Below, one piece after another: positions 10,662 through 60,447 of a stretch of 64,000 nucleotides of DNA. Every line of letters begins with the position of its first letter. Within the stretch, counting starts at the first letter, position 1. This stretch comes from Actinomycetospora termitidis (GTDB lineage: Bacteria > Actinomycetota > Actinomycetes > Mycobacteriales > Pseudonocardiaceae), in contig NZ_JASVWF010000005.1 of the NCBI RefSeq assembly GCF_030286555.1, positions 124,001 to 188,000 of the forward strand, written 5' to 3'. The position numbers and the translations under genes were made by a program. The notes beneath the pieces were generated by a model, which saw only the letters and a program-made list of their open reading frames with translations, had not been told where the DNA came from and did not search any database.

Positions 10662-10669
10662 GCGAAGCT

Positions 10670-10715
10670 CAGGTGAGCACTTCTTGTCGCCATAGCGACA
10701 AGAAGTGCTCACCTG
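10670..10715. terminator. 21-bp perfect hairpin between convergent genes
   Basis: The arms 10670-10690 and 10695-10715 are perfect complements (21 bp) with a 4-base loop (CATA). It starts 9 bases after the icmF stop and overlaps the azoreductase stop codon on the other strand. It is well placed as a bidirectional terminator. Confidence 0.7.
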
Positions 10716-11344
10716 CGAAGCCCACCGCCGATCTTCGCCGCCGCCTCGTGGGCCTCGGCCCGGTTCTGTGCGGCCAGCGGGCGCAGCTCGGCCATGGCCG
10801 GCACGACGTCGGCCAGGGTCAGCTCGGCCTCGACGACGTGGACGTCGGCGCCCCAGACGTCGGCGAGGATCCGGGTGATCCAGCCGGTGCCGTGGTCCCA
10901 GCCCTCGCGGGGCGTCCCCGGGCCGTAGCCACCGCCCCGGCTCACCACGAGGACGACCTCGGTGCCGGCCAGCGGGCTGCTGCCGGGCGCGAAGCGCGGG
11001 TCGGTGATGAGCAGGTCGACCCAGCTCTTGAGGTGCGCGGCGATGCCGAAGTTGTAGAGCGGCGACCCGATGACGACCGAGGAGGCGGCGAGGAGCTCGT
11101 CGGCGAGGGCCGCGGCCGTCGCGAGGGCGTCCCGCTGCTCGTCGGTGCGCTGGTCCTCCGGGGTCATCCCGGCGGCGGTGGCCGCCGCCCAGGTCCCGGC
11201 CGGGATCGGCTCGCGGCCGAGGTCGCGGCGGACCACTCCGGTACCGGGGTGGGACTCGACGTAGGAGCGTTCGAGGCTGTCGAGCACCTCGCGGCTCACC
11301 GACCCCTGCGTGCGGATGCTGCTGTCGATGCGGAGCAGGCTCAT
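10709..11344 (-). CDS. FMN-dependent NADH:azoreductase (AcpD/AzoR family)
   Basis: Flavodoxin-fold NAD(P)H:quinone/azo reductase that does two-electron reduction of quinones and azo compounds. The 211-aa sequence opens with LLRIDSSIR (FMN phosphate-binding loop), has GSPLYNFGIAAHLKSWVDLL (ribityl/isoalloxazine contact; PLYNF is diagnostic), and SRGGGYGPGT for the second flavin loop. The divergent MarR-family gene shares a 92-base promoter with an inverted repeat, suggesting that the reductase is induced by an electrophile or quinone through that repressor. The last codons are formed from the hairpin arm. Confidence 0.88.
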   Translation of the reverse strand: MSLLRIDSSIRTQGSVSREVLDSLERSYVESHPGTGVVRRDLGREPIPAGTWAAATAAGMTPEDQRTDEQRDALATAAALADELLAASSVVIGSPLYNFGIAAHLKSWVDLLITDPRFAPGSSPLAGTEVVLVVSRGGGYGPGTPREGWDHGTGWITRILADVWGADVHVVEAELTLADVVPAMAELRPLAAQNRAEAHEAAAKIGGGLRR

Positions 11345-46653: not shown

Positions 46654-46947
46654 TCAGGACCGCACGAGCCGGGCAATCGCGGCGGACGCCTCCGCGACCT
46701 TCTCCTTCGCCTCCTGGTCCCCGGCCTTGGCCGCGTCGACCACGCAGGTGCCCATGTGCTCCTCGAGCAGGGCCAGGGCGAGGTTCTGCAGCGCGCCCGT
46801 GACCGCGCTGACCTGCGTGAGGACGTCGATGCAGTACTGGTCGGACTCCACCATCCGCGCGATGCCGCGCACCTGGCCCTCGACCCGCTTGAGGCGCCGC
46901 AGGTGCGCGTCCTTGTGCTCGGAGTAGCCGTGCTGGTGCTCGCTCAC
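46654..46947 (-). CDS. csoR: Copper-sensing repressor CsoR family
   Basis: A 97-aa all-helical DUF156 repressor that releases DNA when it binds Cu(I). The three ligands of the CsoR type are present: C39 (in QYCIDVL), H64 and C68 (in EEHMGTCV). The N terminus is His-rich (MSEHQHGYSEH), and the basic helix HLRRLKRVEGQVRGI is the DNA-contact surface. It is divergent from copA; two inverted repeats resembling CsoR operators lie between. FrmR/RcnR relatives have a His at the first ligand region, so Cu(I) is the best guess here. Confidence 0.92.
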   Translation of the reverse strand: MSEHQHGYSEHKDAHLRRLKRVEGQVRGIARMVESDQYCIDVLTQVSAVTGALQNLALALLEEHMGTCVVDAAKAGDQEAKEKVAEASAAIARLVRS

Positions 46948-46956
46948 GGGTGCGAT

Positions 46957-46975
46957 GATACCGGGGCGGGGTATC
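46957..46975. promoter_or_regulatory. CsoR operator 1
   Basis: GATACC (46957-46962) and GGTATC (46970-46975) flank a G/C core, in the usual form of CsoR-family operators (ATACC-G/C run-GGTAT). It lies 10 bases upstream of csoR, consistent with autorepression. Confidence 0.7.
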
Positions 46976-46985
46976 CCGGTCCCGT

Positions 46986-47014
46986 TTGACGCGCATACCC
47001 CAGGGGGGTATCAC
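46986..47014 (+). promoter_or_regulatory. copA promoter
   Basis: A -35 box TTGACG (46986-46991) and a -10 box TATCAC (47009-47014) with a 17-base spacer. Operator 2 (46995-47011) covers the spacer and the start of the -10 box. Only about 8 bases separate the -10 box from the copA ATG, so the transcript is leaderless or nearly so. Confidence 0.55.
46995..47011. promoter_or_regulatory. CsoR operator 2
   Basis: ATACCCC-AGG-GGGGTAT is a perfect 7-3-7 inverted repeat overlapping the copA promoter spacer and -10 box. A repressor bound here would block RNA polymerase directly. Confidence 0.75.
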
Positions 47015-47021
47015 TGCACCC

Positions 47022-49223
47022 ATGGCGACGACCACCGACGCGCCCACGAGCACCGAGCTCGCCATCACCGGAATGACCTGCGCCTCGTGCGCCATGCGCA
47101 TCGAGAAGAAGCTCAACCGGCTCGAGGGCGTCACCGCGACGGTCAACTACGCCACGGAGAACGCGCACGTCCGCCACTCCCCCGACGTCTCGGCGCAGAC
47201 CCTCGTCGCCACGGTCGAGGGTCTGGGCTACGGCGCGACCCCGCCGTCGGCCGACCGGTCGGGCGACGGCGACGACGACGGCGACGCGGAGACCGACGAG
47301 CTCCGCCACCGGTTGCTGGTCAGCCTCGTGCTCACGGTGCCGGTCGTCGCCCTCGCGATGGTCCCGGCGTGGCAGTTCGCGGACTGGCAGTGGATCTCGC
47401 TCGTCCTCGCCGCGCCGGTCGTGCTCTGGGGCGGGTGGCGGTTCCACCGGGCGGCCGCGCTCAACCTGCGCCACGGCACCGCCACCATGGACACGCTGAT
47501 CTCGCTCGGGACCCTGGCCGCCCTCGCCTGGTCGGTGTGGGCGCTGCTGTTCGGCGACGCCGGGATGCCGGGGATGACGCACGAGCTGTCCTTCACGAGC
47601 GACCCGGGCGACGCGATCTACCTGGAGACCGCAGCCGCCGTCACGACGTTCGTGCTGGCGGGGCGGTTCTTCGAGGCACGGGCCAAGCGGCGGGCCGGAG
47701 CCGCGTTGCGTGCGCTGCTCGACCTCGGCGCGAAGGACGTCGCGCTGCTCGTGGACGGGACCGAGCAGCGGGTGCCGGCGGAGCGGCTCGTCGTCGGGAA
47801 CGAGTTCGTGGTCCGGCCGGGCGAGCGCATCGCGACCGACGGTGAGGTCGTCTCGGGGGTCGGCGCGGTCGACGCGAGCACGGTGACCGGCGAGTCGGTG
47901 CCGGTCGAGGTCGCGCCCGGGTCCGCGGTGATCGGTGGATGCGTCGCCGTGGGGTCGCGGCTGGTGGTGCGTGCGACGAGGGTCGGGGCCGACACCCAGC
48001 TCGCCCGGATCGCGCAGCGCGTGGCCGACGCGCAGAACGGCAAGGCCGACATCCAGCGCCTCGCCGACCGGGTCTCCGGGGTGTTCGTGCCGATCGTCGT
48101 CGCGGTCGCCGTGCTGACGTTCGTGGCGTGGCTCGTGCTGGCGGGCGACGTGAGCGGGGCCTTCACCGCCGCCGTCGCCGTGCTCATCATCGCCTGCCCG
48201 TGCGCGCTGGGGCTCGCGACCCCGACGGCGCTGATGGTCGGGACCGGACGCGGCGCGCAGCTCGGCATCCTGCTGCGTGGCCCGGAGGTGTTGGAGTCGA
48301 CCCGGCGCGTCGACACCGTGGTCCTGGACAAGACCGGCACCCTGACCACCGGGGAGATGCGCGTGGTCGGCGAGGTGGACGGGACCGCCCTGCGGTTCGC
48401 CGCCGCGGTCGAGGACGGCTCCACGCACCCGATCGCGCGGGCGATCGCCGAGGCGGGACGTCGCCGCGGGCCGCTGCCGGCGGTGGACGACGCACGCACG
48501 ATCGACGGGCTGGGGGTGAGCGGGACCGTGGAGGGCCACTCCATGCTCGTCGGTCGCCCGGTGCTGCTCGCCGAGCGCGGTCTGGAGCTGTCCGCGCAGC
48601 TGCGCGCCGACCTCGAGGCGGCGCAGGCCGACGGGGCCACCGCCGTCGTCGTGGGCTGGGACGGCGCGGCGCGGGCGGTGCTCGCGGTGGCCGACACCGT
48701 CCGGGAGACCTCCGCGGACGCGGTCGCGGCGCTGCGCGCCCTCGGCGTGCGTCCGGTCCTGCTGACCGGCGATCACGAGACCGCGGCTCGCGCCGTCGCC
48801 GCGCAGGTGGGGATCGACGACGTCCGCGCCGGGGTGCTGCCCGAGCAGAAGGCCGACGCGGTCGCGGAGCTGCAGGCGCAGGGGCACGCCGTCGCGATGG
48901 TGGGCGACGGCGTGAACGACGCGGCCGCGCTCGCCCGCGCCGATCTCGGGCTCGCCATGGGCACGGGCACCGACGTCGCGATCGAGGCGGGCGACGTGAC
49001 CCTGGTCCGCGAGGACCTCCGGGCGGTCCCGGACGCCCTGCGCCTCGCCCGCCGGACGCTCGGCACGATCCGGGGCAACCTGTTCTGGGCGTTCGCCTAC
49101 AACGTCGCGGCCATCCCGCTGGCGGCGTTCGGACTGCTCAACCCCATGGTCGCCGGCGCGGCCATGGCGTTCTCCAGCGTCTTCGTGGTGGGCAACAGCC
49201 TGCGGCTGCGACGGTTCTCGTGA
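47022..49223 (+). CDS. copA: Copper-exporting P1B-type ATPase
   Basis: A 733-aa Cu(I) export ATPase. One N-terminal heavy-metal domain (GMTCASC, C20/C23), eight expected helices with the CPC metal site (C392-P-C394), the phosphorylation motif DKTGTLT (D436), the HP motif (THPIARA) and GDGVND. This is the P1B-1 Cu(I) subtype. The ATG at 47022 is right behind the operator-covered promoter; an in-frame upstream ACG/TTG region lies in the promoter and is rejected. Its stop overlaps the nuoA start (GTGA), so copper export and a complex I-like module are on one transcript. Confidence 0.94.
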   Translation: MATTTDAPTSTELAITGMTCASCAMRIEKKLNRLEGVTATVNYATENAHVRHSPDVSAQTLVATVEGLGYGATPPSADRSGDGDDDGDAETDELRHRLLVSLVLTVPVVALAMVPAWQFADWQWISLVLAAPVVLWGGWRFHRAAALNLRHGTATMDTLISLGTLAALAWSVWALLFGDAGMPGMTHELSFTSDPGDAIYLETAAAVTTFVLAGRFFEARAKRRAGAALRALLDLGAKDVALLVDGTEQRVPAERLVVGNEFVVRPGERIATDGEVVSGVGAVDASTVTGESVPVEVAPGSAVIGGCVAVGSRLVVRATRVGADTQLARIAQRVADAQNGKADIQRLADRVSGVFVPIVVAVAVLTFVAWLVLAGDVSGAFTAAVAVLIIACPCALGLATPTALMVGTGRGAQLGILLRGPEVLESTRRVDTVVLDKTGTLTTGEMRVVGEVDGTALRFAAAVEDGSTHPIARAIAEAGRRRGPLPAVDDARTIDGLGVSGTVEGHSMLVGRPVLLAERGLELSAQLRADLEAAQADGATAVVVGWDGAARAVLAVADTVRETSADAVAALRALGVRPVLLTGDHETAARAVAAQVGIDDVRAGVLPEQKADAVAELQAQGHAVAMVGDGVNDAAALARADLGLAMGTGTDVAIEAGDVTLVREDLRAVPDALRLARRTLGTIRGNLFWAFAYNVAAIPLAAFGLLNPMVAGAAMAFSSVFVVGNSLRLRRFS

Positions 49224-49579
49224 CGGGATTCGTCGCGCTCGCGGTGGTCGCCGGCGCCGCCCTGGTCGGGGTGGGGCTGGTGGTGGCCGGGTCGTGGCTG
49301 GTGCGGGTCGTGGCCGGGACGCGGCGTCCGCTGGTGGCCGCGCCGCACGTCGGCGGGATGCCGGTGGTCGAGCACGCGGTGTCCCGCTGGCACGTCCGGT
49401 GGCCGACCCTCGCCCTGGTGTTCCTGGCCTTCGACATGGAGATGCTCTTCATGTACCCGTGGACGCTGGTCGTGGCCCGGTCGGGCCCGGCGGCGGCGGT
49501 CGAGATGTTCGTGTTCCTCGGGATCCTGCTGGTGGGCGTGGGCTACGCGTGGCGCGAGGGCGCGTTCCGGTGGTCCTGA
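49220..49579 (+). CDS. nuoA: NADH-quinone oxidoreductase subunit A-like
   Basis: A 119-aa membrane subunit with three helices. ALVFLAFDMEMLFMYPW is the NuoA signature (acidic residues of helix 2). In complex I NuoA holds the quinone channel together with NuoH and NuoJ. GTG 49220 overlaps the copA stop codon by 4 bases. The next gene starts inside its last codons. It is the first gene of a module that lacks the NADH-oxidising arm. Confidence 0.88.
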   Translation: MTGFVALAVVAGAALVGVGLVVAGSWLVRVVAGTRRPLVAAPHVGGMPVVEHAVSRWHVRWPTLALVFLAFDMEMLFMYPWTLVVARSGPAAAVEMFVFLGILLVGVGYAWREGAFRWS

Positions 49580-50613
49580 GGCGCCTCGCGGCCCGCCGCC
49601 CCCACGTGCTGACGATCGCGCCCGCCCCGGTCTCCCCCGACGACCTGCCGCTGCGGCTCGCCGTCGAGGTCGAGCTCGCCCGCCGTCGCTGGCCGTCCGC
49701 GACCTCGCCCGCCGACACCGACGTCCTGCTCGTGCTCGGCACGCCGGGCCCGCGCCTCGCGCAGGTCGTGCGGGCGGTGTGGGCGACGGTGCCGGCGCCA
49801 CGGGTGGCGGTCGGGGTGACGACGCCGGGTGCGGTCCGGTCGGTGCTCGACGATGCGGCGGCGCGGCTGGCGGGGCGGGGCGGCGATACGACGTCCGATT
49901 GTGCCGTCCAGCGTCAGCATGGCCGCACTGCTGACACCGGAGTGGGCGACCGAGCCGACACCGGAGTGGCCGACGCGCAGATGGCCGACCTCGCCTTCTA
50001 CGACCGCGACGGGCTCGCCCTGGACGCCGTGCACGTCGCGCTCGGCCCGGTGCTGCCGCACTGGCCCGCCGGGCTCGTGGTGCACGCGACGCTGGCCGGG
50101 GACCTGGTCACCGACGCGCGGGCCGAGGTCCTCGACGTGCCCGCCACCGTCGGACCCGGCAGCCGCGGGCGTTCGCCGCTGGGCCCCGACCGCACCCGGC
50201 TCGACATCCTCACGCGCGTGCTCGGGCTCCTGGGCGCCGACCACCTCGCCGCCCGGGCGCGGGACCTGCGCGACCACGACCCGGAGCCCGGCGAACTCAC
50301 CACCTTCGGCCGCCGCCTCGCCCGGCACCGCCCGCTGCGCTGGGCCACCCGCGACATCGCCCTGGTCGGCGGGCCGGTCGAGGAGCGCACCGTCGAGCAG
50401 CGGGTCCTCGCGCTCGCGCGCGCCCTCGGCGGCAGCCTGGCACCGCCCGTGCGGCCGACGCCGGAGAAGGCCACCCAGGCGATGATCGGCCTCGAGCTCG
50501 GGGCCGCCCGCCTGGCCCTCGCCGCGATGGACCCGGACACGACGCTCGGCGCGGGTCCGGTCGCCGCGTACGCCCCGCCCCAGGGGGAGGTGACCCATCA
50601 CCACCATCACTGA
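49570..50613 (+). CDS. Degenerate NuoB/NuoD-like fusion protein
   Basis: A 347-aa soluble protein. Residues ~10-103 (HVLTIAPAPVSPDDLPLRL; DVLLVLGTPGPRLAQVVRAV) look like the core of NuoB, but none of the four Cys that bind cluster N2 is present: the only Cys is C111. Residues ~144-347 start VALGPVLPHWPAGLVVHATL, which lines up with the NuoD N-terminal strand region LGPxHP..; the quinone-site His/Tyr motif is absent. Residues ~104-137 are a polar linker with a palindrome in its DNA. The C terminus ends in five His codons (THHHHH). Predicted role: cap on the membrane arm that no longer carries an Fe-S cluster. Confidence 0.55.
   Translation: MVLRRLAARRPHVLTIAPAPVSPDDLPLRLAVEVELARRRWPSATSPADTDVLLVLGTPGPRLAQVVRAVWATVPAPRVAVGVTTPGAVRSVLDDAAARLAGRGGDTTSDCAVQRQHGRTADTGVGDRADTGVADAQMADLAFYDRDGLALDAVHVALGPVLPHWPAGLVVHATLAGDLVTDARAEVLDVPATVGPGSRGRSPLGPDRTRLDILTRVLGLLGADHLAARARDLRDHDPEPGELTTFGRRLARHRPLRWATRDIALVGGPVEERTVEQRVLALARALGGSLAPPVRPTPEKATQAMIGLELGAARLALAAMDPDTTLGAGPVAAYAPPQGEVTHHHHH
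49870..49985 (+). repeat. Palindrome and direct repeats inside the NuoB/D-like linker
   Basis: GTCAGCA (49913-49919) and TGCTGAC (49929-49935) are a perfect 7-9-7 inverted repeat, and GACACCGGAGTGG occurs twice nearby (about 49933 and 49959). The local composition is less G+C-rich than the flanks. This is in-frame and encodes the Asp/Thr-rich linker. Confidence 0.5.
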
Positions 50614-50653
50614 GCTCGTCGTCCTCGCGCCGGCGCTGGTCGTCGTCGCCGGG

Positions 50654-51511
50654 ATGGCGGCGGGCGCGGGCGCCGTCACCGCCGGGGACCACCCGGCCAC
50701 CCCCGTCGTCGAGACCCTCCGCCTGCTCGCGAAGCAGCGCCGCCGCACCCCGGCCGACGACCCCGCGCTCGCCCGGATCGGCCTCACCGTCCTGCCGGTG
50801 GCCGCCGTCCTCGCGCTCGCGGTGGTCCCGCTCGGGGACACCGCCCCGGTCGACCTCGACGTCGGCGTCGTGTGGTTCAACGCCATGGAGGTCCTCGCCT
50901 GGTTCGCGGTGTGGGTCGCCGGGTGGGGGCCGAACGCCGTGACGAGCCTGGCCGGTGGCTACCGGATGCTGCCGCTGGGGCTGGCCTACGAGCTCCCGCA
51001 CATGCTCGCGATCATCACCCCCGCGATCGCCGCCGGGTCGCTCGCGCCGGCCACGATCGCCGCCGCCCAGCACGACCTCTGGTACGCGGTGTGGATGCCC
51101 GCGGCCTTCGTGCTCTACCTGGTGTCGGTCGCGGCCATGGCGTTCTGGGGTCCGTTCGCCGCTCCCCTGGGTCGTGACCTCGCCGGCGGCGCCGTGGCCG
51201 AGCACGCCGGGCTGGGCCGCCTGCTGCTGCACGCGGGCCGCTGGATGCTCCTGACGGCGGGTGCGGCGATGGCCGTCCCGCTGTTCCTCGGCGGCGGCGC
51301 TCCCCCGCCGATCACCGGGCCGGACCCGTTCCCCGGTCTGCCTGCGCTGTGGTTCGCCGTCAAGCTCGTCGTCGTGATCGGCCTGCTCCTGGCCGCGCGC
51401 CGGGTGGTGCCGATGCTGCGCACGGCCCGGTTCGTCACCCTCGCCTGGACGGTCCTCATCCCCCTCGCCGTCGCCCAGGCCCTCGTCGTGACGGTGGTGG
51501 TGCTGACGTGA
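50654..51511 (+). CDS. nuoH: NADH-quinone oxidoreductase subunit H-like
   Basis: A 285-aa membrane protein with seven or eight helices. AGWGPNAVTSLAGGYRMLPLGLAYELP matches the NuoH helix around the conserved Glu, so family assignment is good. The canonical acidic loop (E..NR.PFDL.E.ESEL) is replaced by FWGPFAAPLGRDLAGGAVAEH, so the quinone-channel Glu/Asp cluster is mostly lost. Start is uncertain: 50654 is the first ATG, yet the in-frame codons back to 50594 encode a hydrophobic stretch with no ATG, GTG or TTG; a rare start codon may be used, since ATG 50654 cuts helix 1. Confidence 0.8.
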   Translation: MAAGAGAVTAGDHPATPVVETLRLLAKQRRRTPADDPALARIGLTVLPVAAVLALAVVPLGDTAPVDLDVGVVWFNAMEVLAWFAVWVAGWGPNAVTSLAGGYRMLPLGLAYELPHMLAIITPAIAAGSLAPATIAAAQHDLWYAVWMPAAFVLYLVSVAAMAFWGPFAAPLGRDLAGGAVAEHAGLGRLLLHAGRWMLLTAGAAMAVPLFLGGGAPPPITGPDPFPGLPALWFAVKLVVVIGLLLAARRVVPMLRTARFVTLAWTVLIPLAVAQALVVTVVVLT

Positions 51512-51990
51512 TCGCCCTGGTGGGCGCCCTCGGCGTCGTCGCCGTCGGCACCGGCCTGCTCGTGTTCACCGTGAACTCGATGGCCCGCGCGACGTTCCTG
51601 CTGCTGGCCTCGTTCGTCGCGGTCGCGGTGCTGCTGATCGCGTTCGGCCTGGGCTACCTCGGGACGGTGATCGTCCTGATGATGACGATCGAGATGATGA
51701 TCATGGCGGTCTTCATGGTCATGCTGATGATGAACCCGGCCGGGCTGATGCCGATGACCATGGTCCACAACCGGTGGGGCTCCTGGGCGATCGCGCTGGT
51801 CGTGTTCGGCCTCCTCGCCGCGGGCGCCTGGCTGGTGCCGTTCCCGACGACCGGTCGCGCGGCCCAGGACCCGACCGTCGCCCTCGGCGACGCGCTCATG
51901 GGCCCGCAGATGCTCACCATGATGACGCTGGGCCTGGCGCTGCTGGCGACGATCGTCGGGACGGTGGCCGTGGCGGTGAGCCGCCGGTGA
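51508..51990 (+). CDS. nuoJ: NADH-quinone oxidoreductase subunit J-like, methionine-rich
   Basis: A 160-aa, five-helix subunit. NuoJ-like topology with YLGTVIVLMMTIEMMIMAV, where 12 Met occur in 29 residues (about residues 55-83, extending to MNPAGLMPMTM). In complex I helix 3 of NuoJ is a mobile element linking the quinone site to the proton pumps. GTG 51508 overlaps nuoH by 4 bases. The high Met content could be structural, but in a copper operon Cu(I) contact by Met thioethers is worth testing. Confidence 0.82.
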   Translation: MIALVGALGVVAVGTGLLVFTVNSMARATFLLLASFVAVAVLLIAFGLGYLGTVIVLMMTIEMMIMAVFMVMLMMNPAGLMPMTMVHNRWGSWAIALVVFGLLAAGAWLVPFPTTGRAAQDPTVALGDALMGPQMLTMMTLGLALLATIVGTVAVAVSRR

Positions 51991-52298
51991 CCGAGCTGGT
52001 GCTGCGCATCGCGTTGACCGTGGCCGCCGCCCTCGTCGCGACGGGGCTCTACGGCGCCCTGTCGCAGCAGTCGATCGTCATGATCATGATGGGCCTGGAG
52101 CTCGTCGTGAACGGCCTGATCCTCGGTGCCGGGGCGTTCTGGTGGGCTGGGGGCGGCGGCACGGACGCGAGCGTGCTCGTCGTCGTGCTGGTCACCGTGA
52201 TGGCGGTCGAGATGGCGTTGGGCTTCGCCGTCGCGCTCGCGCTCTACCGGGCCCGGCAGGTCGACCTCACCGACGACGCCGCGGAGCTCGCCGGATGA
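51987..52298 (+). CDS. nuoK: NADH-quinone oxidoreductase subunit K-like
   Basis: A 103-aa, three-helix subunit. IVMIMMGLELVVNGLIL carries the conserved membrane Glu of helix 2, and EMALGFAVALALYR that of helix 3, so the proton-conducting Glu pair is kept. GTG 51987 overlaps nuoJ by 4 bases and the stop overlaps nuoL by 4 bases. Confidence 0.9.
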   Translation: MTELVLRIALTVAAALVATGLYGALSQQSIVMIMMGLELVVNGLILGAGAFWWAGGGGTDASVLVVVLVTVMAVEMALGFAVALALYRARQVDLTDDAAELAG

Positions 52299-54160
52299 CC
52301 CTCCTGCTCGCCCTGCTGCTCGCCGTCCCCGTCCTCGCGGGCCTCGTGCTGCTCACGGCGTTCCCCCGCGCGACCGGGGCGCCGATCGTGGCCGCCGGGC
52401 TCGTCGCGGCGGTGGTGTCCGCCGTGCTCGCGGTCGAGCTCGCGACCGCGGTCGGCACGCGCGCGACCCCGATGCTCGTGGTCCCCCTGCTCGGCCCCGT
52501 CACGTTCACCTACGCCGTCGACGGCCTCGCGGCGGTCCTCGTCGTGACGGTCACGGTGATCGGCGCGCTCGTCCTGCTCGCGGCCGCCGGGGAGCAGCGG
52601 CTGCGGCGCGGCCGCTTCGTCGGGATGGTGCTGGTCTTCCTCGGCGCCATGCTCGCGACCGTCACCGCCGCGACCCTCCCCGCCCTGCTCGCGCCGTGGG
52701 AGGTCATGGGCGCGGCGAGCTGGGCGCTGATCGCGTTCGACCGGCGCGACCCCGCCGTGGGGCCCGCCGCCGGCCGCGCCTTCCTGACGACGAGGACGAC
52801 CGACCTCGGCCTCTACGTCGCCACCGGCGCGGCCCTCGCCGCCGGCGTCCCCGGGCTCGGTCTCGCCTTCCTGACGGCGGGTGACCCGGCCTGGCAGGGC
52901 CTGATCGCCGCCGGGATCGTGCTCGCCGCGCTCGGCAAGTCCGCGCAGCTGCCGTTCTCCGCGTGGCTCTCCGGCGCGATGCTGGGCCCGAGCCCGGTGT
53001 CGGCCCTGCTGCACTCCGCGACCATGGTCGCCGCCGGCGCCGTGCTGCTCCTGCGGGCCGGGCCGCTGCTCGCCGCGACCGGGTGGGCGGCGACGCTCGT
53101 GGCCTGGGTCGGGGCTCTGACCGCGGTCGTGCTCGGGCTGATCGGCGCGTGCCAGCGCGACCTCAAACAGCTGCTCGCCGCGTCGACCTGCGCGCAGGTG
53201 GGGCTGATGGTCCTGGGCGCCGGGGTGGGCGCACTCAGCGGGGCCGCCGGCCTCCTCGTGGCGCACGCGGCGGTCAAGGCCCTGCTGTTCCTCGCCGCCG
53301 GCGGGTGGCTCGCCGTGCTCCGGACCCGCGCGCTGCCCGCGCTGCGCGGCGCCGCCCGCCGTCATCCCGCCGTCGGTATCCCGTTCACGGTCGGGGCGGT
53401 CGCGCTCGCCGGGGTCCCGCCGCTGTCGCTGTGGTGGACCAAGGACGCCGTGCTCGTCGGCATCCCGCTCGGCGACGGGCTGCTGACCGTCGCCGGCCTG
53501 CTCGCCACCGCGCTCTCGGCGGTCGGCGCGACGCGCGCCGCGTGGTTCGTGTGGCGCCCGGTGCGGTCCCCGTCGATCCGCCGGGGTCCCGACCGCGCCC
53601 GCCGCCGCGTGCCGCTCGCGATCACCCTGGCCCTCGCGGCGCTGACGGTGCCGGCCGCGGCGCTGGGCGGGATCGCGGTGGCGGTCGGGCTCGTGCCACG
53701 AGCGGACGCGGGTGAGCTCGTGACGACGGGAGTGGTCGTCGTGTTCGCCGCCGCGGCGACGTGGGCGTTGCACAGCCGCCCGCTGCAGGTCAGGTCGCCG
53801 GTGTGGGGCCGGGCCGCGGGCGTCGCGCGGCGTTGGCTGGGGCTGGGACTCCTCGGACCCGCCGTCGGGAAGCCCGTGACGGCCCTCGCCCGGCTGACCG
53901 AGCGCGCGGACGCGACGCTCGGGCAGGCCCTGCCGCGGGCGGTGGCCGCCGTCCCGGCGCTGGCCCGCGGCGTCGAACGCCGGGGCGAGCAGCCCCTCGC
54001 AGCCGCCGTCGGGGCGCTCGCGGCGGGAGTGCGGCGCCTGGGTGACCTCGCGCGGCGCCCGCAGACCGGACAGCAGCACCAGTACTACGCCCAGGGGGTG
54101 ATCGCGATCGGGACGCTGGGGGCGCTCGCCGCCGTCGTGGTGTGGGCGGGGGTGCGCTGA
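52295..54160 (+). CDS. nuoL: NADH-quinone oxidoreductase subunit L-like (antiporter subunit)
   Basis: A 621-aa proton-pumping subunit with about 16 helices. The channel residues of the Mrp/NuoL family are kept: Glu in APWEVMGAASW (helix 5), Lys in LGKSAQLPFSAWL (helix 7), His in LLHSATMV, Lys in RDLKQLLAASTCAQVG. The C-terminal ~120 residues contain a long amphipathic section and QTGQQHQYYAQGV before the last helix, as in the lateral-helix region of NuoL. It should be able to translocate protons. Confidence 0.92.
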   Translation: MTLLLALLLAVPVLAGLVLLTAFPRATGAPIVAAGLVAAVVSAVLAVELATAVGTRATPMLVVPLLGPVTFTYAVDGLAAVLVVTVTVIGALVLLAAAGEQRLRRGRFVGMVLVFLGAMLATVTAATLPALLAPWEVMGAASWALIAFDRRDPAVGPAAGRAFLTTRTTDLGLYVATGAALAAGVPGLGLAFLTAGDPAWQGLIAAGIVLAALGKSAQLPFSAWLSGAMLGPSPVSALLHSATMVAAGAVLLLRAGPLLAATGWAATLVAWVGALTAVVLGLIGACQRDLKQLLAASTCAQVGLMVLGAGVGALSGAAGLLVAHAAVKALLFLAAGGWLAVLRTRALPALRGAARRHPAVGIPFTVGAVALAGVPPLSLWWTKDAVLVGIPLGDGLLTVAGLLATALSAVGATRAAWFVWRPVRSPSIRRGPDRARRRVPLAITLALAALTVPAAALGGIAVAVGLVPRADAGELVTTGVVVVFAAAATWALHSRPLQVRSPVWGRAAGVARRWLGLGLLGPAVGKPVTALARLTERADATLGQALPRAVAAVPALARGVERRGEQPLAAAVGALAAGVRRLGDLARRPQTGQQHQYYAQGVIAIGTLGALAAVVVWAGVR

Positions 54161-54161
54161 G

Positions 54162-55706
54162 GTGCTGACCGTGATGTGGGTCGCGCCGCTGGCCGTGGCC
54201 CTGCTGCTCGTGCCGGTGACCCGCCGCGAGGTGCTGCTCGGCGCGTGGACGGGGCTCGCGCTGCTCGAGGTGGTGCTCGCGGTCGTCGCGTGGACGTCGG
54301 TGGGGGTCGGCTATGCCCACGAGGTCGCCGTGCCGTGGATCCCGGCGTTCGGGGTCGGCTACCATCTGGGGCTCGACGGGATCTCGGCGCCGCTGGTCGC
54401 GATGACGACGCTGGTGTTCCTCGCGGTGGCGCTGTACTCGCTGCGCCACGACCCGGCGGGGGACGGCGACACCGACGAGCGCCGCACCCGGGGCTACGTG
54501 CTGCTGTTCCTCGGGCTCGAGGCCGTGTCGGTCGGGGTGTTCACCGCACTCGACCTGGTGCTGTTCTTCGTGTTCTTCGACGTCTCGATCGTGCTGATGT
54601 ACTTCGTGATCGCGGGGTGGGGTTCCGGCGCGCGGGCGAGGAGCGCGCTGCAGTTCTTCCTGTACACGTTCGTCGGGTCGCTGGTGATGCTCCTCGGGTT
54701 CCTGTCGCTGGCCGTCGCCGTACCGCAGATCACCTTCGACATCCCGACGCTCGCCGCCACGAACCCGCTGGCGGACCGCGGCGTCGCGGGGATGCTGACG
54801 CTCGCGGCGATCGGGATCGGCCTGGCGATCAAGACCCCGGTGTGGCCGCTGCACACCTGGCTCCCGCCCGCCCACACCGACGCCCCCGCCGGAGGATCGG
54901 CCGTCCTGGCGGCGGTGCTGCTGAAGATGGGGACCTACGGCTTCGTCCGGATCGCGCTGCCGCTGCTGCCCGGTCCGTGGCGCGGGGCGGCGCTCGTCGC
55001 GGTGGTCCTGGGCGTGGTCTCGGTGCTGTCGGGTGCGCTCGTGGCCCTCGCCCAGCGGGATCTCAAGCGGCTCGTCGCCTACACCTCGGTGAACCACATG
55101 GGCTACGTGCTGCTGGCGCTGGGTGCCGCCGGGTACGCGGCCGCCGGGTCCGAGGCGCGGGTCCTCGCCGTCACCGGGGCGACGGTGCAGATGGTGAGCC
55201 ACGGCCTGGTCACCGGAGCGCTGTTCCTGCTGGCCGGGACGCTGCGCGAGCGCGGCGGCACGTCGGTGATCGGCGCCTGGTCCGGTCTCGCGGGGCCGAT
55301 GCCGCGGTTCTCCTGGACGTTCGCCGTGGCGGCGTTCGCCTCGCTGGGCCTGCCCGGGCTCTCCGGCTTCGTCGCCGAGTTCTCCATGCTCGCCGGGTCG
55401 CTGCCCGCGGTTCCGGTGGCGACGGTCCTCGCGGCGCTGGGCCTCGCGATCACCGCCGGGCTGTTCCTGCGGGCGGTGCAGTCGATGCTGCTCGGGGACC
55501 GCCACCTGCCTGCGGCTGCGGAGCGTCCGCCGATCCGGAGCACCGGGGTCTTCCGCCGACCGGTCTCCCCCGACCTGCGCGTCGCCGAGACGACGGCGGT
55601 CGGGCTCCTGCTGGCGGCGTCGCTCGCGATCGGGATCGCCCCCGCCCTCGTCACGACGACGATCGCGCCCGCCGCGACCTCGGTGGTGGACCTGGTGTCG
55701 CGGTGA
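54162..55706 (+). CDS. nuoM: NADH-quinone oxidoreductase subunit M-like (antiporter subunit)
   Basis: A 514-aa, ~14-helix subunit. Helix 5 reads FFVFFDVSIVLMYFVI, where canonical NuoM has Glu (FFEA..): here Asp, so acidity is kept. Helix 7 has IKTPVWPLHTWLPPAHTDAP with the conserved Lys and His, and RDLKRLVAYTSVNHMGYV the helix 8 Lys. GTG 54162 starts one base after the nuoL stop. Expected to pump protons. Confidence 0.92.
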   Translation: MLTVMWVAPLAVALLLVPVTRREVLLGAWTGLALLEVVLAVVAWTSVGVGYAHEVAVPWIPAFGVGYHLGLDGISAPLVAMTTLVFLAVALYSLRHDPAGDGDTDERRTRGYVLLFLGLEAVSVGVFTALDLVLFFVFFDVSIVLMYFVIAGWGSGARARSALQFFLYTFVGSLVMLLGFLSLAVAVPQITFDIPTLAATNPLADRGVAGMLTLAAIGIGLAIKTPVWPLHTWLPPAHTDAPAGGSAVLAAVLLKMGTYGFVRIALPLLPGPWRGAALVAVVLGVVSVLSGALVALAQRDLKRLVAYTSVNHMGYVLLALGAAGYAAAGSEARVLAVTGATVQMVSHGLVTGALFLLAGTLRERGGTSVIGAWSGLAGPMPRFSWTFAVAAFASLGLPGLSGFVAEFSMLAGSLPAVPVATVLAALGLAITAGLFLRAVQSMLLGDRHLPAAAERPPIRSTGVFRRPVSPDLRVAETTAVGLLLAASLAIGIAPALVTTTIAPAATSVVDLVSR

Positions 55707-57088
55707 CGCGCGACCTGCTCGCCCTCGCCCCGGAGGCGCTGCTCGCGCTCGGGGCGGTGCTGGGGCTCGCGGTCGGGACGTGGCTGCCGCCCGGGCGGGA
55801 GGGCGCGGTCCGCGGCATCGGGGTGGTCGCCGCGCTGGCCGCGGGGGTCGTGGCGGTGGCCGCACCGGTCGCGGGCCCGGCCTTCGGCGGGACGTTCGCC
55901 GTGGACGGCGCGACCGCGGCGGTGCGGGTGATCGTGGCGGGTGCGGTCGTCGTGACGCTGGTGCTGGCCGGGGACCCGTCCGCCCTCGGCGGGACGCCCG
56001 ACCGGGCGAGCCCGACGAGCGCGCGGGTGGACACCGCGTTCGCCGTGCTGCTCCAGCTGTCCGCGGTCGGCGCGATGCTGCTCGGCGGGGCGACCGACCT
56101 GCTGCTGCTCGCGTCCGCCGTGCTGCTCGCCGGGCTGCCGCTGGCGGCGCTGGCCGGGCTCGCGCGCGACGGGCGCTCGACGGAGGCCGCGCTCAAGTAC
56201 TTCCTGTCCTCGGCGCTGTTCGGTCTGCTCGCGCTGGCCGGGACGACGCTGCTGCTCGGGCTGGCGGGTGCCACCGCCTACCCGGCGCTCGCCGGGCTCA
56301 CGGGGCCCGCACCCGCCGTCGGGATAGTGCTGGTGCTGGCCGGGCTGCTCATGACGGCGGGGGCCGTGCCCGCGCACTTCTGGGTGCCGGACGCGGTCGA
56401 CGGCACCTCCCCCGTCACCGGGGCGGTGCTCACCACCACGGCCAAGGTGGGCGCGCTCGTCGCGCTGTGGCGGCTCGCCCTGGCCGTCCCCGGTGTGCCC
56501 GTGCCGCTGCTGCTCGCGATCGTCGCGGTCGGCTCCATGTCCCTCGGCAATCTGGCCGCGTTCGCCCAGACCTCGCTGCGCCGGCTGCTCGCCTACTCGA
56601 CGGTCAGCCAGGTCGGCTACCTGCTGGTGCCGGTCGTGGTCGCCCGGGAGACCGCGCTGGCACTCCCGGCCCTGCTCGGCTACCTGGCGGCCTACGTCGT
56701 CACGAACCTCGCGGTCTTCGCGGTGCTCGCCGCCCGCCCGCAGGCGCTGGAGATCGGCGACCAGCGGGGCCTGGCGCGCCGCCACCCCGGGCTCGCGGTG
56801 GCGCTGGCGGTGGGGCTGCTCGGGCTGGTCGGGACGCCGCCGACGGTCGTGTTCGCGGGGAAGCTCGCGGGCTTCACGGCCGCGCTCGACGGCGGGTGGG
56901 CCTGGCTGGCGGGCGTCGCGGTGCTGAACTCGATCGCGAGCCTCTTCTACTACCTGCGCTGGATCGCCCCGGTGTTCTCCGCGGGCGACCCGGTGCTGCG
57001 CGACCCGGTCGCGCCGCGGGCCCGGGCGGTCGCGGTGGTGCTCTCGGCGGTGTCGCTCGTGGGCACGGTCGCCGCCGTCGTCTCGTAG
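55703..57088 (+). CDS. nuoN: NADH-quinone oxidoreductase subunit N-like, altered channel
   Basis: A 461-aa, ~13-14-helix subunit recognised by STEAALKYFLSSAL and LLAYSTVSQVGYLL. Unlike NuoL and NuoM it lacks two key residues: canonical GLELQSL is ASAVLLAGLPL here (helix 5 Glu lost), and the helix 7 Lys in LLFKLGAVPFHFW is Thr (LLMTAGAVPAHFW). The helix 8 Lys is Arg (SLRRLLAYS). It may therefore be a structural subunit. GTG 55703 overlaps nuoM by 4 bases. The end overlaps the convergent VC0807-like gene by 139 bases. Confidence 0.9.
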   Translation: MTRDLLALAPEALLALGAVLGLAVGTWLPPGREGAVRGIGVVAALAAGVVAVAAPVAGPAFGGTFAVDGATAAVRVIVAGAVVVTLVLAGDPSALGGTPDRASPTSARVDTAFAVLLQLSAVGAMLLGGATDLLLLASAVLLAGLPLAALAGLARDGRSTEAALKYFLSSALFGLLALAGTTLLLGLAGATAYPALAGLTGPAPAVGIVLVLAGLLMTAGAVPAHFWVPDAVDGTSPVTGAVLTTTAKVGALVALWRLALAVPGVPVPLLLAIVAVGSMSLGNLAAFAQTSLRRLLAYSTVSQVGYLLVPVVVARETALALPALLGYLAAYVVTNLAVFAVLAARPQALEIGDQRGLARRHPGLAVALAVGLLGLVGTPPTVVFAGKLAGFTAALDGGWAWLAGVAVLNSIASLFYYLRWIAPVFSAGDPVLRDPVAPRARAVAVVLSAVSLVGTVAAVVS

Positions 57089-57684
57089 GAGCCGGCCGCC
57101 CACTGCGTCCACGCGACGAGCGCGAGGATCGTCAGGGCACCGAGCAGCGGGACGACCAGGGCGGCGGGCTCCAGCGGCAGCGTGACGGCCAGCAGCACGC
57201 GCACCGCCGCCTCGGCGAGCAGCACCGTGCCCCACGTCGCGGTCATCCTCCGGTGCAGCGTGCGGAACGCCGGCGAGGAGTCCCACCGGGCCGCCCACGC
57301 GTCCGGGTCCCCGCCCAGCCCCCGGCGGACGTGGTAGATCGCGGGCCGTCGGGCGAGCAACGTGACCAGGAAGACGACCCCCAGGCACGCCGTGACGACC
57401 GCGTCCTTGGCCAGGACGACGCGGGCGTCGCCGGTGACGAGGGCCGCGAGGACGCCGAGGGCGAACTTCCCGCACAGCAGCAGCGGGAGTGCCCCGAGCA
57501 CCCCGGTGCGCAGCCGCACGATCCCGGCCCGCACCAGGGCCACGCCCCCGGCCGCCGCGAGGGCCGCCACGGCGGACCACCCGGCGGCCGAGAGGGCGAG
57601 GTAACAGACGAAGGGCAGGGCCACGTCCCAGCCCAGCGACGCGACGACGGTCGCCCACGTGGTCCGCGTGGCCCCGCCGCTCAC
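56950..57684 (-). CDS. VC0807-family-like integral membrane protein
   Basis: A 244-aa, six-helix protein that resembles VC0807/septation-protein-A-like membrane proteins: WDVALPFVCYLAL at the start, LLARRPAIYHVRRGL in the middle and LPLEPAALVVPLLGALTILALVAWTQW at the end. The C-terminal 40 residues are polar Ser/Thr-rich and their codons overlap the 3' end of nuoN. GTG 57684 overlaps the ACP stop (GTGA), tying this gene to the PKS operon. A second gene with the same C-terminal helix pattern begins at the other end of the cluster (63867). Role unknown; export or membrane scaffold for the PKS is possible. Confidence 0.72.
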   Translation of the reverse strand: MSGGATRTTWATVVASLGWDVALPFVCYLALSAAGWSAVAALAAAGGVALVRAGIVRLRTGVLGALPLLLCGKFALGVLAALVTGDARVVLAKDAVVTACLGVVFLVTLLARRPAIYHVRRGLGGDPDAWAARWDSSPAFRTLHRRMTATWGTVLLAEAAVRVLLAVTLPLEPAALVVPLLGALTILALVAWTQWAAGSYETTAATVPTSDTAESTTATARARGATGSRSTGSPAENTGAIQRR

Positions 57685-57932
57685 GCGACCAGCTCGCGGT
57701 TCAGGACGACGAGCAGGTCCGCCGGGTTCGTGGCGGCGGCGACCACGTCGTCGGGCAGGGACACGCCCCAGCGCGCCTGGACGAGGGTGAGGGTCTCGAG
57801 CACCGCCAGGGAGTCGTACCCGAGGTCGGCGAACGGCGTGGACATGAACGCCTCGGGGTCGAGCGTGACGTCCGGGGGGCCGCCCGCGTCCGAGAGCAGG
57901 GCGGCGAGTTCGGGTCCGGTGAGGCTGCGCAT
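57681..57932 (-). CDS. Type II PKS acyl carrier protein
   Basis: An 83-aa carrier protein with the phosphopantetheine site Ser41 in DLGYDSLAVLE, the form found in type II polyketide ACPs. It carries the growing chain for the adjacent ketosynthase pair. Overlaps the VC0807-like gene by 4 bases and follows the chain-length factor gene by 21 bases. Confidence 0.92.
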   Translation of the reverse strand: MRSLTGPELAALLSDAGGPPDVTLDPEAFMSTPFADLGYDSLAVLETLTLVQARWGVSLPDDVVAAATNPADLLVVLNRELVA

Positions 57933-57953
57933 GGTGGTTCTCCTTCTCGTGCT

Positions 57954-59159
57954 TCAGGGACGGGTGACGACGACGGCGGCGTTGAAGCCGCCCTGGCCTC
58001 GGGCCAGGACCAGGGCCGCGTCGTGCTCGACCTCGCGCGCCCCGCCGACGACGAGGTCGAGGCCGAGATCGGGACGCGGGGCGGTGACGTTCGGGGTCGG
58101 GGGGACGACGGCGTCGCGCAGGCCGAGCAGGGCCGTCGCCACGTCCAGCGGGCCGCCGCCGGAGGAGAGTCGGCCGACGCCGGCCTTCGGCGCGGTGACC
58201 GGGACCCGGTTCGCGCCGAACACGTCCCGGAGCGCGGCCGCCTCCTGCTCGTCGAGCTCGGGGGTGCCGGCGGCGTCGGCGTAGACGACGCCCACGTCGG
58301 ACGGCTCGAGCCCGGCGTCGGCCAGGGCACCGACGACGGCGCGGCGCAGCCCCGGCTCGCGTCGCGGGTCGCGCGGGTCGAAGGTGGCCGCGTAGCCCGC
58401 GACGGTGCCGTACGGCCGGGTGACGCCGCGGGCGGCGGCCGCGGCGGCCTCCTCGACCACGAGCAGGGCGCCCCCCTCCCCGACCACGTGCCCGCCTGCG
58501 GCCGCGTCGAACGGGAGGAAGGCCCGCGCCGAGTCGTCGGAGGTGCTGACCCGCCCGGAGGTGCCGGTGGCGACCCAGCCCCACGGGCACAGCGACGCGT
58601 CGACCGCGCCGCTCACGACGAGCGCGGCCGGCCCGCGCAGCAGCCGCCGCGCCTGCCCGAGCACGTCGAGCCCGCCCGCCTGCTCGGCCACGAGGACCCC
58701 GCTGGGTCCGCGCATGCCGTGCCGGATGGAGATCTGGCCGGTGTTCACCGCGTAGAACCAGGCGAACGACTGGTAGGCGCTCACCTGGTGCGGTCCGTGG
58801 CCCCAGAGCTTCTGCAGCTCGCGCTGGCCGAACTCGAACCCGCCGGACGAGCAGGCCGTCGCGACGCTCATCGCGTACTCCGGCTGCTCCGCGGGTTCCA
58901 GCACGGCGTCCGCGAGGGCCCACTCGGCGGCCACGAGCGCGAGCCGGGTCATGTGGTCGGTCTGGGCGAGGAGCCGGCGCGGGACCAGGGCCGCGACGTC
59001 GAGGTCGATCTCCCCGGCGAGCCGGTGCGGGTACCCCGTCGCGTCGAAACGGGTCGGCGGGGCGAGCGCGCTGCGGCCCGCCAGGGTCGCCGCCCAGTAC
59101 GTCTCGACGCCCGCGCCGGTGGGGGCGAGGACGCCCAGGCCGGTGACGACGGCGGTCAT
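57954..59159 (-). CDS. Type II PKS chain-length factor (ketosynthase beta)
   Basis: A 401-aa ketosynthase homolog with Gln160 in [12 protein letters not shown] where ketosynthases have the active-site Cys, the hallmark of KS-beta/CLF. It forms a heterodimer with KS-alpha, starts chains by malonyl-ACP decarboxylation and sets chain length. ATG 59159 overlaps the KS-alpha stop by 4 bases, as in most type II clusters. The cavity residues that would predict chain length cannot be aligned by eye. Confidence 0.93.
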
Positions 59160-60427
59160 CCGAGCACCCCCTCGCGGGTCACGACCACCGCGCTCTGGAA
59201 GCCGCCGAAGCCGCTGCCGACGCTCAGGACGACGTCGAGGTCGGCGGGGCGGGCCTCCCGCGGGACGTAGTCGAGGTCGCACTGCGGGTCGGGCACCGCG
59301 TAGTTCGCGGTCGGCGGGACGACACCGCGATCGACCGCGAGGGCGCACGCCGCGAGCTCCAGCGACCCGATCGCACCGAGCGAGTGGCCGATCATCGACT
59401 TGATCGAGCTCATCGGGGTGCGCCGCGCGTGCTCGCCCAGGCTGCGCTTCACCGCGGCGGTCTCGTGCCGGTCGTTCTGCACCGTGCCCGACCCGTGCGC
59501 GTTGACGTGGTCGACCCGCTCGGGGTCGAGCTTGGCGTCGGCGAGCGCCGCGTCGATCGCGACGGACATCTCCCGTCCGTCGGCGCGCAGCCCGGTCATG
59601 TGGAAGGCGTTGCAGCGCGACGCGTGGGCGGCGAGCTCGGCGACGATGGTCGCGCCCCGGGCGCGGGCGGCGTCGAGCTCCTCGAGGACGAACATCGCCG
59701 CGCCCTCCCCCAGCACGAACCCGTCGCGGGTGCCGTCGAACGGCCGGGAGGCGGTGGCCGGATCGTCGTTGCGGGCGGTGGTGGCCTTGATGGCGTCGAA
59801 GCAGGCCACCGTGATCGGCGAGATGGGCGCATCCGTGGCGCCGGCGAGCATGACGTCGGCGGAGCCCTCCGCGATCAGGGCGGCGGCGTGCCCGACCGCG
59901 TCGAGCCCGCTCGTGCAGCCCGCCGAGAGCATGGCCACCGGCCCCTCGACCCCGAACCGGCCCGCGACCTCGGCGGAGATCGAGCTCGGGACGAAGTAGT
60001 CGAACAGGCGGGCGGGCGCACGGGTGTGGTCGACCAGCCAGCGCGATCCGCCCTCGCTGACCACCGCGTACTCCCGGTCGAGGCCCATGGTGGCCCCGAC
60101 CGCGCTGCCGACCGTGACCCCCCAGCGGTGGGCGCGGTCGTCCGGGTCGGTCGGCGCGATGCCGCTGTGGGCGAGGGCCTCCCGTGCGGCGACGACGGCG
60201 AACTGGGCGGAACGGTCGAGCTCGACGGCCTCGCGGGCGTCGAAGCCGTGCCGGGCGGGGTCGAAGTCGGCCTCGGCCGCCACCCGCGAGCGGAAGGGGG
60301 TGGGGTCGAAGAAGGAGATGGTCCGGGTGGCCGTGCGTCCGGCGGTGAGCAGGTCCCAGAACGGTTCGACGCCGATACCGCCCGGGGCGACGACCCCGAT
60401 GCCGGTGATGGCGACACGTCTTCCCAT
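59156..60427 (-). CDS. Type II PKS ketosynthase alpha
   Basis: A 423-aa condensing enzyme with the full catalytic set: C171 in [14 protein letters not shown]311 in [16 protein letters not shown]343 and H348 in [15 protein letters not shown]. These are the forms of aromatic type II KS-alpha. It elongates the ACP-bound chain with malonyl units together with the CLF. Ribosome binding site GGAGGATT precedes the ATG at 60427. No cyclase or ketoreductase gene lies within the window. Confidence 0.94.
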
Positions 60428-60447
60428 GGCGAATCCTCCGGTCGTCC

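Follow-up and report, generated by a model that had tools for sequence, protein, structure and literature searches.

Why should the gene for a Cu(I)-type P1B ATPase overlap a row of genes for the membrane subunits of respiratory complex I? The question is raised by a locus of the soil-type bacterium Actinomycetospora termitidis (family Pseudonocardiaceae), found at positions 46654–57088 of a 64,000-nucleotide stretch of contig NZ_JASVWF010000005.1 (positions 124,001 to 188,000; RefSeq assembly GCF_030286555.1). We call this stretch the window and number positions from its first letter. Here csoR, a CsoR-type operator and copA form one tight unit with nuoA, a degenerate fusion of nuoB and nuoD (hereafter BD), nuoH, nuoJ, nuoK, nuoL, nuoM and nuoN.

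A sequence-only reading of the window proposed a copper-responsive operon serving either to maintain the proton motive force during copper stress or as an ion leak or antiporter coupled to metal export. Comparison of this locus with its relatives indicates that the complex I-like module probably helps to move copper instead of respiring, and we judge it somewhat better than an even bet that it forms a non-redox, proton-driven complex for the handling or export of Cu(I), built from complex I parts and made together with CopA.

Organisation of the locus

46654–46947, minus strand: csoR, 97 amino acids, GTG start (PF02583, E 3.5e-29)
46996–47010, between csoR and copA: CsoR-type operator TACCCCAGGGGGGTA, matching the TAC-X9-GTA G-tract pseudopalindrome
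47022–49223, plus strand: copA, Cu(I)-type P1B ATPase, 733 amino acids (TIGR01511, 520 bits against a cut-off of 397)
49220–49579, plus strand: nuoA-like subunit, GTG start, FDxE motif retained (PF00507, E 3.3e-21)
49570–50613, plus strand: BD, degenerate NuoB–NuoD fusion without iron–sulphur (FeS) or quinone ligands, C-terminal HHHHH
50597–51511, plus strand: nuoH-like subunit, start uncertain (ATC at 50597 or ATG at 50654; PF00146, E 1.3e-38)
51508–51990, plus strand: nuoJ-like subunit, methionine-rich (PF00499, E 3.4e-12)
51679–51732, plus strand: codons Met58 to Met75 of NuoJ, the methionine-rich helix 3
51748–51768, plus strand: codons Met81 to His87 of NuoJ, the Met/His segment after helix 3
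51987–52298, plus strand: nuoK-like subunit, two membrane Glu retained (PF00420, E 1.3e-10)
52295–54160, plus strand: nuoL-like antiporter subunit, WE, GK, HAxxK and KD motifs retained (PF00361, E 2.4e-39)
54162–55706, plus strand: nuoM-like antiporter subunit (PF00361, E 2.4e-56; TIGR01972, 421 bits against a cut-off of 264)
55703–57088, plus strand: nuoN-like antiporter subunit (PF00361, E 7.4e-40)

The divergence of csoR from copA, the four-base overlap of copA with nuoA and the order nuoA-BD-H-J-K-L-M-N, all described in the sequence-only reading, can be read directly from the sequence. The copA stop and the nuoA GTG start share four bases (GTGA) and the junctions downstream of nuoA overlap by 4 to 17 bases, with the exception of nuoL–nuoM, where one base is spare. 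The overlap of 17 bases between BD and nuoH, and with it the earlier description of overlaps or near-zero gaps throughout, is conditional on the ATC start at 50597: the nuoH frame contains no ATG, GTG or TTG before 50654 and none overlapping the BD stop. An ATC start would be unusual.

Pfam families were assigned to the window proteins CsoR, CopA, NuoA, NuoH, NuoJ, NuoK, NuoL, NuoM and NuoN, and both the CPC motif and the HMA CxxC motif are visible in the CopA translation. The window BD has no Pfam match, and its NuoB matches in NCBIfam are weak (best E 0.0019). The sequence-only reading saw no internal promoter or terminator; a consensus scan for sigma-70 sites found no promoter-like site in the unit but proved insensitive, missing the csoR–copA promoter too, and a scan for simple intrinsic terminators returned one terminator-like site, inside nuoM, against 0.9 expected by chance.

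As the same reading stated, NuoC, NuoE, NuoF, NuoG and NuoI were not found, by open reading frames or Pfam, between copA and the end of nuoN. Frames for them occur only in a separate region of the genome, where they lie with B and D frames beside a second, canonical-type NuoH; the module is therefore an addition to the genome's complex I, not a replacement for it.

Related loci

Of 297 Pseudonocardiaceae genomes, 74 (from 21 of 46 genera) contain a match to BD, which rules out a module unique to this genome. A NuoJ profile at E 1e-15 found matches in 35 of 396 phylum-wide genomes (22 of 237 genera), and a scan by NuoJ patterns, with each species represented by a single genome, yielded at least 404 confirmed relatives, the best 80 of which are referred to here as the named loci. 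BD was also found on 16 plasmid records from nine actinomycete genera (six of these records being from Mycobacterium); 12 actinomycete plasmid stretches were examined, two of which (L057 and L060) gave no NuoJ and so represent incomplete modules. A Rubrobacter-type BD query matched 31 plasmid records and 12 of the 20 listed—from Rubrobacter, Paracoccus, Sulfitobacter, Roseovarius, Nitratireductor and Thioclava—match over at least two thirds of the query, with BD annotated as a heavy metal-binding domain-containing protein; in most of the remaining listed records the match is confined to a short stretch. The module thus belongs to a widespread, often plasmid-borne family in Actinomycetota that is also found on plasmids of Alphaproteobacteria. 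Plasmid-labelled records of Enterobacteria and Acinetobacter (CP137936.1, here L185, and similar) also contain nuoH; in L185, nuoG and nuoI lie beside it and such records may be chromosome fragments.

Twenty family genomes were picked by hand for spread from the 74 with matches, after locus contexts had been seen; five of the eight previously seen loci with csoR beside nuoA fell within the chosen set. Lower-scoring extra NuoH copies, present in six of the 20, were left out of module and control counts. Eighteen phylum loci completed the sampling. The sets overlap, with 104 distinct NuoJ sequences among 111 and six groups of identical NuoJ (for example, L035/L123, L037/L093 and L046/L055). Alignments A1, A3 and A4 comprise 19 of 29 extracted BD proteins, 77 of 79 and 58 of 80 sequences, respectively.

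Subunits A, H, J, K, L, M and N are present in all 20 family loci. Among the 80 named loci, several of which are cut by contig ends, A, BD and H each occur in 79, J, K and L in all 80, M in 78 and N in 77, and the eight-gene order is the same in most. This constancy, together with the same order on alphaproteobacterial plasmids and the conserved residue patterns described below, makes it barely credible that the module is a decaying, functionless remnant of complex I carried along with copA, as the divergence of BD and its lack of a Pfam match in the window might suggest.

In a NuoH tree, 22 module sequences fall on one side of a branch (support 96/91) and the alphaproteobacterial group lies beside Rubrobacter, which suggests transfer between phyla; the comparison rows were six complex I-type NuoH and one hydrogenase-4 NuoH, and some rows of the tree are long-branched and of unsure place.

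Loss of the redox core

A profile of 19 BD proteins recovered NuoB chains from the PDB first (over about 40 residues, best E 4.2e-6), and 12 of the 19 members matched the NuoB family model singly, at E values up to 0.1. NuoD ancestry is clearest in Rubrobacter-type BD proteins, where PF00346 scored above its cut-off in five of six and just below it in the sixth (best E 5.8e-20). An AlphaFold model of the window BD (pLDDT 83.7, pTM 0.81) likewise gave NuoB chains as the top Foldseek matches (probability 1.0, E 0.023), with none at E ≤0.001 and a few NuoD-type chains lower in the ranking.

The histidines of the NuoD motif GPQHPSTHG are quinone-site residues. When 11 BD proteins were compared with the genome's own NuoB and NuoD (one, L054, being partial in its NuoB half), these histidines were replaced in all 11, as in GPFFPGLPA or GPVLPHWPA, and the N2 cysteines of NuoB (canonical Cys 37, 38, 103 and 132) had no counterpart in any; a CC pair occurs in two of 112 BD proteins. 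Nor is the quinone-loop motif of NuoH, ETNRAPFDLPEAESEL, retained in the consensus of 108 actinomycete-type NuoH sequences.

An NADH- or quinone-linked proton pump was rejected on the loss of the redox ligands in BD. The suggestion that the module maintains the proton motive force is likewise not supported, as BD, the would-be partner of an electron donor, has neither the N2 cysteines nor the quinone histidines. The canonical subunit set elsewhere in the genome could in principle lend its peripheral arm to the module, which would then act as an alternative membrane arm and pump protons with NADH during copper stress; we consider this very improbable, given that the ligands of N2 and the histidines of NuoD, which would receive and pass the electrons, are missing from BD, that the NuoH quinone loop is altered and that the module occurs on plasmids as a unit.

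The small and large subunits of membrane-bound [NiFe] hydrogenases, MBS and hydrogenase-4 correspond to NuoB and NuoD, and the BD model shows weak structural matches to MbhJ and to the MBS and FHL small subunits. However, FeS ligands are absent from BD and the module NuoH stands apart from a hydrogenase-4 NuoH (which itself sits on a long branch of unsure place); a hydrogenase-like module was rejected on the absent FeS cysteines together with the NuoH tree grouping.

Methionine-rich membrane subunits

Methionine makes up 9.8% of the window NuoJ against 3.8% of the genome's canonical NuoJ, and 8.4% of NuoK against 5.1%. Because the named loci were recruited by Met-containing NuoJ patterns and the phylum loci by a NuoJ profile, we quote conservation first from loci recruited through BD, namely 29 NuoJ sequences comprising the window and 28 others, two short ones having been left out. 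Seven methionines of helix 3 (M58, M59, M63, M66, M70, M74 and M75) are present in all 29, and in total 13 positions are invariantly Met (25, 58, 59, 63, 66, 70, 74, 75, 83, 85, 131, 135 and 138 in window numbering), at none of which does the canonical NuoJ have Met. Eighteen further NuoJ sequences from both phyla (six from named Rubrobacter and alphaproteobacterial plasmids found via BD, 12 found via the NuoJ profile) keep all seven helix-3 methionines in 17 cases and six in the other.

After helix 3, M83 and M85 are present in 29 of 29 sequences and M81 in 28, M81 being missing in most deep relatives; H87 is invariant across the 58 rows of A4 and the 18 further sequences. The positive-inside pattern, as judged by eye, and the topology of NuoJ suggest that this Met/His segment faces the cytosol. 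An AlphaFold model of NuoJ (pLDDT 77.7) matches NuoJ chains.

A Rhodopseudomonas sp. BAL398 plasmid (L189:8405–15763) carries a variant in which BD is missing between nuoA and nuoH, and a DUF305 gene lies just upstream of the module; the NuoJ of this variant has a partial Met pattern and a long His/Met-rich insert directly after helix 3. A Methylobacterium aquaticum plasmid (L188, about 8669–11020) has nuoA, nuoH, nuoJ and nuoK stretches that match it. The BD design and the Rhodopseudomonas insert design would thus each equip the same end of the complex with a segment of metal-binding character.

Of the residues linked to proton translocation in complex I, the module mostly retains the membrane Glu/Lys of NuoL, NuoM and NuoK and the Asp/Glu of NuoA, with losses in NuoN. 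In Mrp antiporters, the NuoJ counterpart is MrpA-C, that of NuoK is MrpC and the Na+ exit path corresponds to the complex I E-channel (PMC7419157). With antiporter-like subunits and NuoJ/NuoK, homologous to that path, retained, the module might be a copper-induced monovalent-cation/proton antiporter that moves Na+ or K+, like Mrp, and repairs ion balance or membrane potential in copper stress, its Met and His residues merely sensing or tolerating copper; linkage to CsoR, after all, tells only when the module is made. We regard this as rather unlikely, since Met is enriched in the very subunits of the cation path and the metal-binding repeats in the BD of relatives, described next, point to a soft metal and not to Na+.

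Metal-binding features of BD

The heavy-metal-binding domain (HMBD) PF19335 scores above its cut-off in all six Rubrobacter-type BD proteins (E 6e-13 to 9e-23), and in these proteins, as in the alphaproteobacterial ones examined, it lies between the NuoB and NuoD halves. By motif, five of the six Rubrobacter-type proteins have one copy and that of Rubrobacter tropicus two, whereas five alphaproteobacterial plasmid BD proteins have two to five, accompanied by His-rich runs. HMBD of this type also occurs in the copper/silver protein CusB, and the BD of Sulfitobacter faviae matches the CusB model at E 7.4e-15, below the whole-protein cut-off. On the plasmids of S. faviae and Paracoccus sediminicola (L180 and L181), BD contains several near-identical HMBD repeats with His-Glu-Gly runs, a pattern that suggests recent repeat expansion. 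Most actinomycete BD proteins have a His-rich linker in place of HMBD: at least six His within 40 residues were found in 79 of 112, compared with three of 666 other module proteins. The sequence-only reading overlooked these metal-binding domains and linkers, as well as the methionine-rich NuoJ, all of which point to metal as the likely substrate.

Copper control and copper neighbours

The locus csoR is the sole CsoR-family match in the 6.56-Mb assembly. Its best NCBIfam match, copper-sensing RicR, falls below the cut-off (144 against 175 bits), and its translation carries a Cys-His-Cys set (QYC, EEHMGTC) that we take to be the Cu(I) ligands of CsoR proteins. The palindrome TACCCCN3GGGGTA occurs once in the window, at 46996–47010, against 0.006 expected from base composition. 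The operator of Streptomyces lividans CsoR is described as a G-tract pseudopalindrome with TAC-X9-GTA (PMC3902906).

Sites of the same kind lie in the csoR–nuoA gap of other loci that lack an intervening copA, or just upstream of nuoA without an adjoining csoR. Within 400 bp upstream of nuoA, we counted six palindromes (in five loci) among the 20 family loci, three among 10 plasmid loci, 14 (in 12 loci) among 79 named loci and two among the 18 phylum loci, where the site density elsewhere in the same stretches predicts 0.04, 0.01, 0.65 and 0.04, respectively. Copper control of the module, in the form of a predicted CsoR operator and regulon, is well supported by sequence; the proposal that CsoR governs copA and the nuo genes together draws on the operator, the single CsoR gene and the overlapping genes.

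We scored five kinds of copper gene (csoR, copA, copZ, multicopper oxidase and DUF305) over about 10 kb on each side of the module, where the contig allowed. At least one was found near 10 of 20 family, seven of 12 actinomycete plasmid, 49 of 80 named and 14 of 18 phylum loci. CsoR lay within 10 kb of the module in eight of the 20 family genomes, which together have 54 CsoR-family matches, against 0.16 expected and none of 23 for the canonical nuoH control. A copA directly upstream of nuoA on the same strand was seen in seven loci of the same genus, including the window, in one of another genus (L023), in Curtobacterium and, among the 80 named loci, in three from Streptomyces. A synteny check therefore places the copA–nuoA adjacency in other genera too, as one of several arrangements, csoR or an operator adjoining nuoA without an intervening copA being commoner. 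That the module is a chance neighbour of copA was ruled out by the recurrence of copper linkage across genera.

Individual loci illustrate the range. A Rubrobacter tropicus plasmid encodes a P-type ATPase, CsoR, a copper ion binding protein and nuoA-BD-H-J-K-L-M-N, all in one direction; the Pseudonocardia autotrophica locus has an HMA protein, an ATPase and a CsoR-type regulator; and that of Arthrobacter FB24 has a multicopper oxidase, a sulfocyanin-like protein and DUF305. Genes for multicopper oxidases occur in 13 and for DUF305 proteins in 28 of the 80 named loci, so that the module might deliver Cu(I) to such periplasmic proteins, or to sulfocyanin, in place of exporting it. This we hold to be decidedly unlikely, as control of the CsoR type implies use at copper excess and the neighbouring genes for CopA and CopZ serve detoxification; the module could, in any case, both deliver and export copper.

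Two further protein families accompany the module. A secreted-looking His-rich protein of about 300 amino acids without a Pfam match (L143:6377–7294 and relatives) occurs in 18 of the 80 named loci and a BNR-repeat, lipoprotein-like family (L102:17620–18501 and relatives), which may be the F510_1955 family of the Arthrobacter FB24 annotation, in 17; all of these loci also have a copper gene match. In the window itself, the minus-strand genes directly 3′ of the module (57681–60430), an apparent acyl carrier protein and two ketosynthase-like genes, resemble, when read by eye, a type II polyketide cluster.

Discussion

The answer we favour to the question raised by this locus is a complex that works on copper. 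We lean slightly towards Cu(I) transport by the module, and infer from these comparisons that its subunits assemble, that Cu(I) is the ion and that its outward movement is coupled to protons; the antiporter coupled to metal export that the sequence-only reading offered as its second alternative finds support here. Under this model, CsoR would sense excess Cu(I), leading to the module and CopA being made together; BD, through HMBD or its His-rich linker in most relatives, would collect cytosolic Cu(I) and hand it to NuoJ, whose methionine-rich helix 3 would offer it a path at the J/K/H/A end, where Mrp carries Na+, and inward proton flow via NuoL, NuoM and NuoN would drive it out. In its simplest form, Cu(I) would take the place of Na+ on the same chassis as Mrp. 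In the clade of the window, where copA precedes the module and BD is metal-poor, we speculate that CopA or another donor may do the collecting. The chances stand about level for the more specific proposal of a pump for Cu(I), and possibly also Ag(I), that is driven by the proton motive force, rests on a complex I chassis and has spread between phyla on plasmids, with copper-collecting domains in place of the redox core and a methionine-rich route in place of the E-channel or cation path.

Several observations weigh against a copper-moving complex. No copper gene was found nearby in 31 of 80 named, 10 of 20 family, five of 12 actinomycete plasmid and four of 18 phylum loci, nor, by annotation, in the alphaproteobacterial plasmid stretch of Paracoccus sediminicola. 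HMBD-like motifs occur in none of the 112 actinomycete-type BD proteins, and the window BD, besides having no HMBD, is poor in His, with at most five in 40 residues, all five being the terminal HHHHH. Taken together, the seven helix-3 methionines of NuoJ show no more clustering on a face of the helix than chance would give (P 0.14), with five of them lying within 40 degrees; the helix-5 Glu of NuoN is lost in the family consensus and the window NuoN also lacks one Lys. P values here overstate independence, as loci are related and some stand in two sets. The flanks of the 31 named loci without copper genes have few gene families in common. In favour of copper control, five of these loci have an operator site with at most one mismatch within 400 bp upstream of nuoA, where 0.04 are expected.

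Known systems share parts of this design. Respiratory complex I, whether the 14-subunit NDH-1 or the 11-subunit Fpo/Ndh types, has NuoA, H, J, K, L, M and N in the same order; BD has NuoB and NuoD ancestry and the proton-channel residues are mostly kept. The module differs from it in the absence of NuoC, E, F, G and I from the cluster, of the N2 cysteines and of the NuoD quinone histidines, and in its altered NuoH quinone loop, Met-rich NuoJ and, in relatives, metal-binding insertions. Mrp cation/proton antiporters likewise consist of membrane subunits of the complex I kind and have no redox arm, but are built as MrpA-G and not as A-BD-H-J-K-L-M-N with three antiporter-like subunits, and the module is set apart from them by its Met-rich NuoJ and, in many loci, its copper gene context. 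CsoR-CopZ-CopA copper efflux operons have CsoR, the operator type and the CopZ and CopA neighbours in common with module loci; searches of open-access papers, at the level of listed titles and abstract openings, showed neither complex I-like genes within an operon of this kind nor any complex I module described as copper-linked or cofactor-free. Non-redox use of complex I parts is already known from Mrp; proven Cu(I) transport would add to the novelty.

Conclusions

Current annotations label the genes of this module NADH-quinone oxidoreductase subunits or 'heavy metal-binding domain-containing protein'. If our reading is correct, they encode a further route of copper export beside P1B ATPases and RND systems, and the means by which actinomycetes and marine Alphaproteobacteria handle copper would include a plasmid-borne system of several subunits. 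The complex I chassis, known for redox pumping and Na+/H+ antiport, would gain a third use. One reason for the debate over coupling in complex I is that its redox chemistry is inseparable from ion movement; a natural relative that is free of redox ligands and offers candidates for both the substrate and its binding place would allow that coupling to be tested directly.

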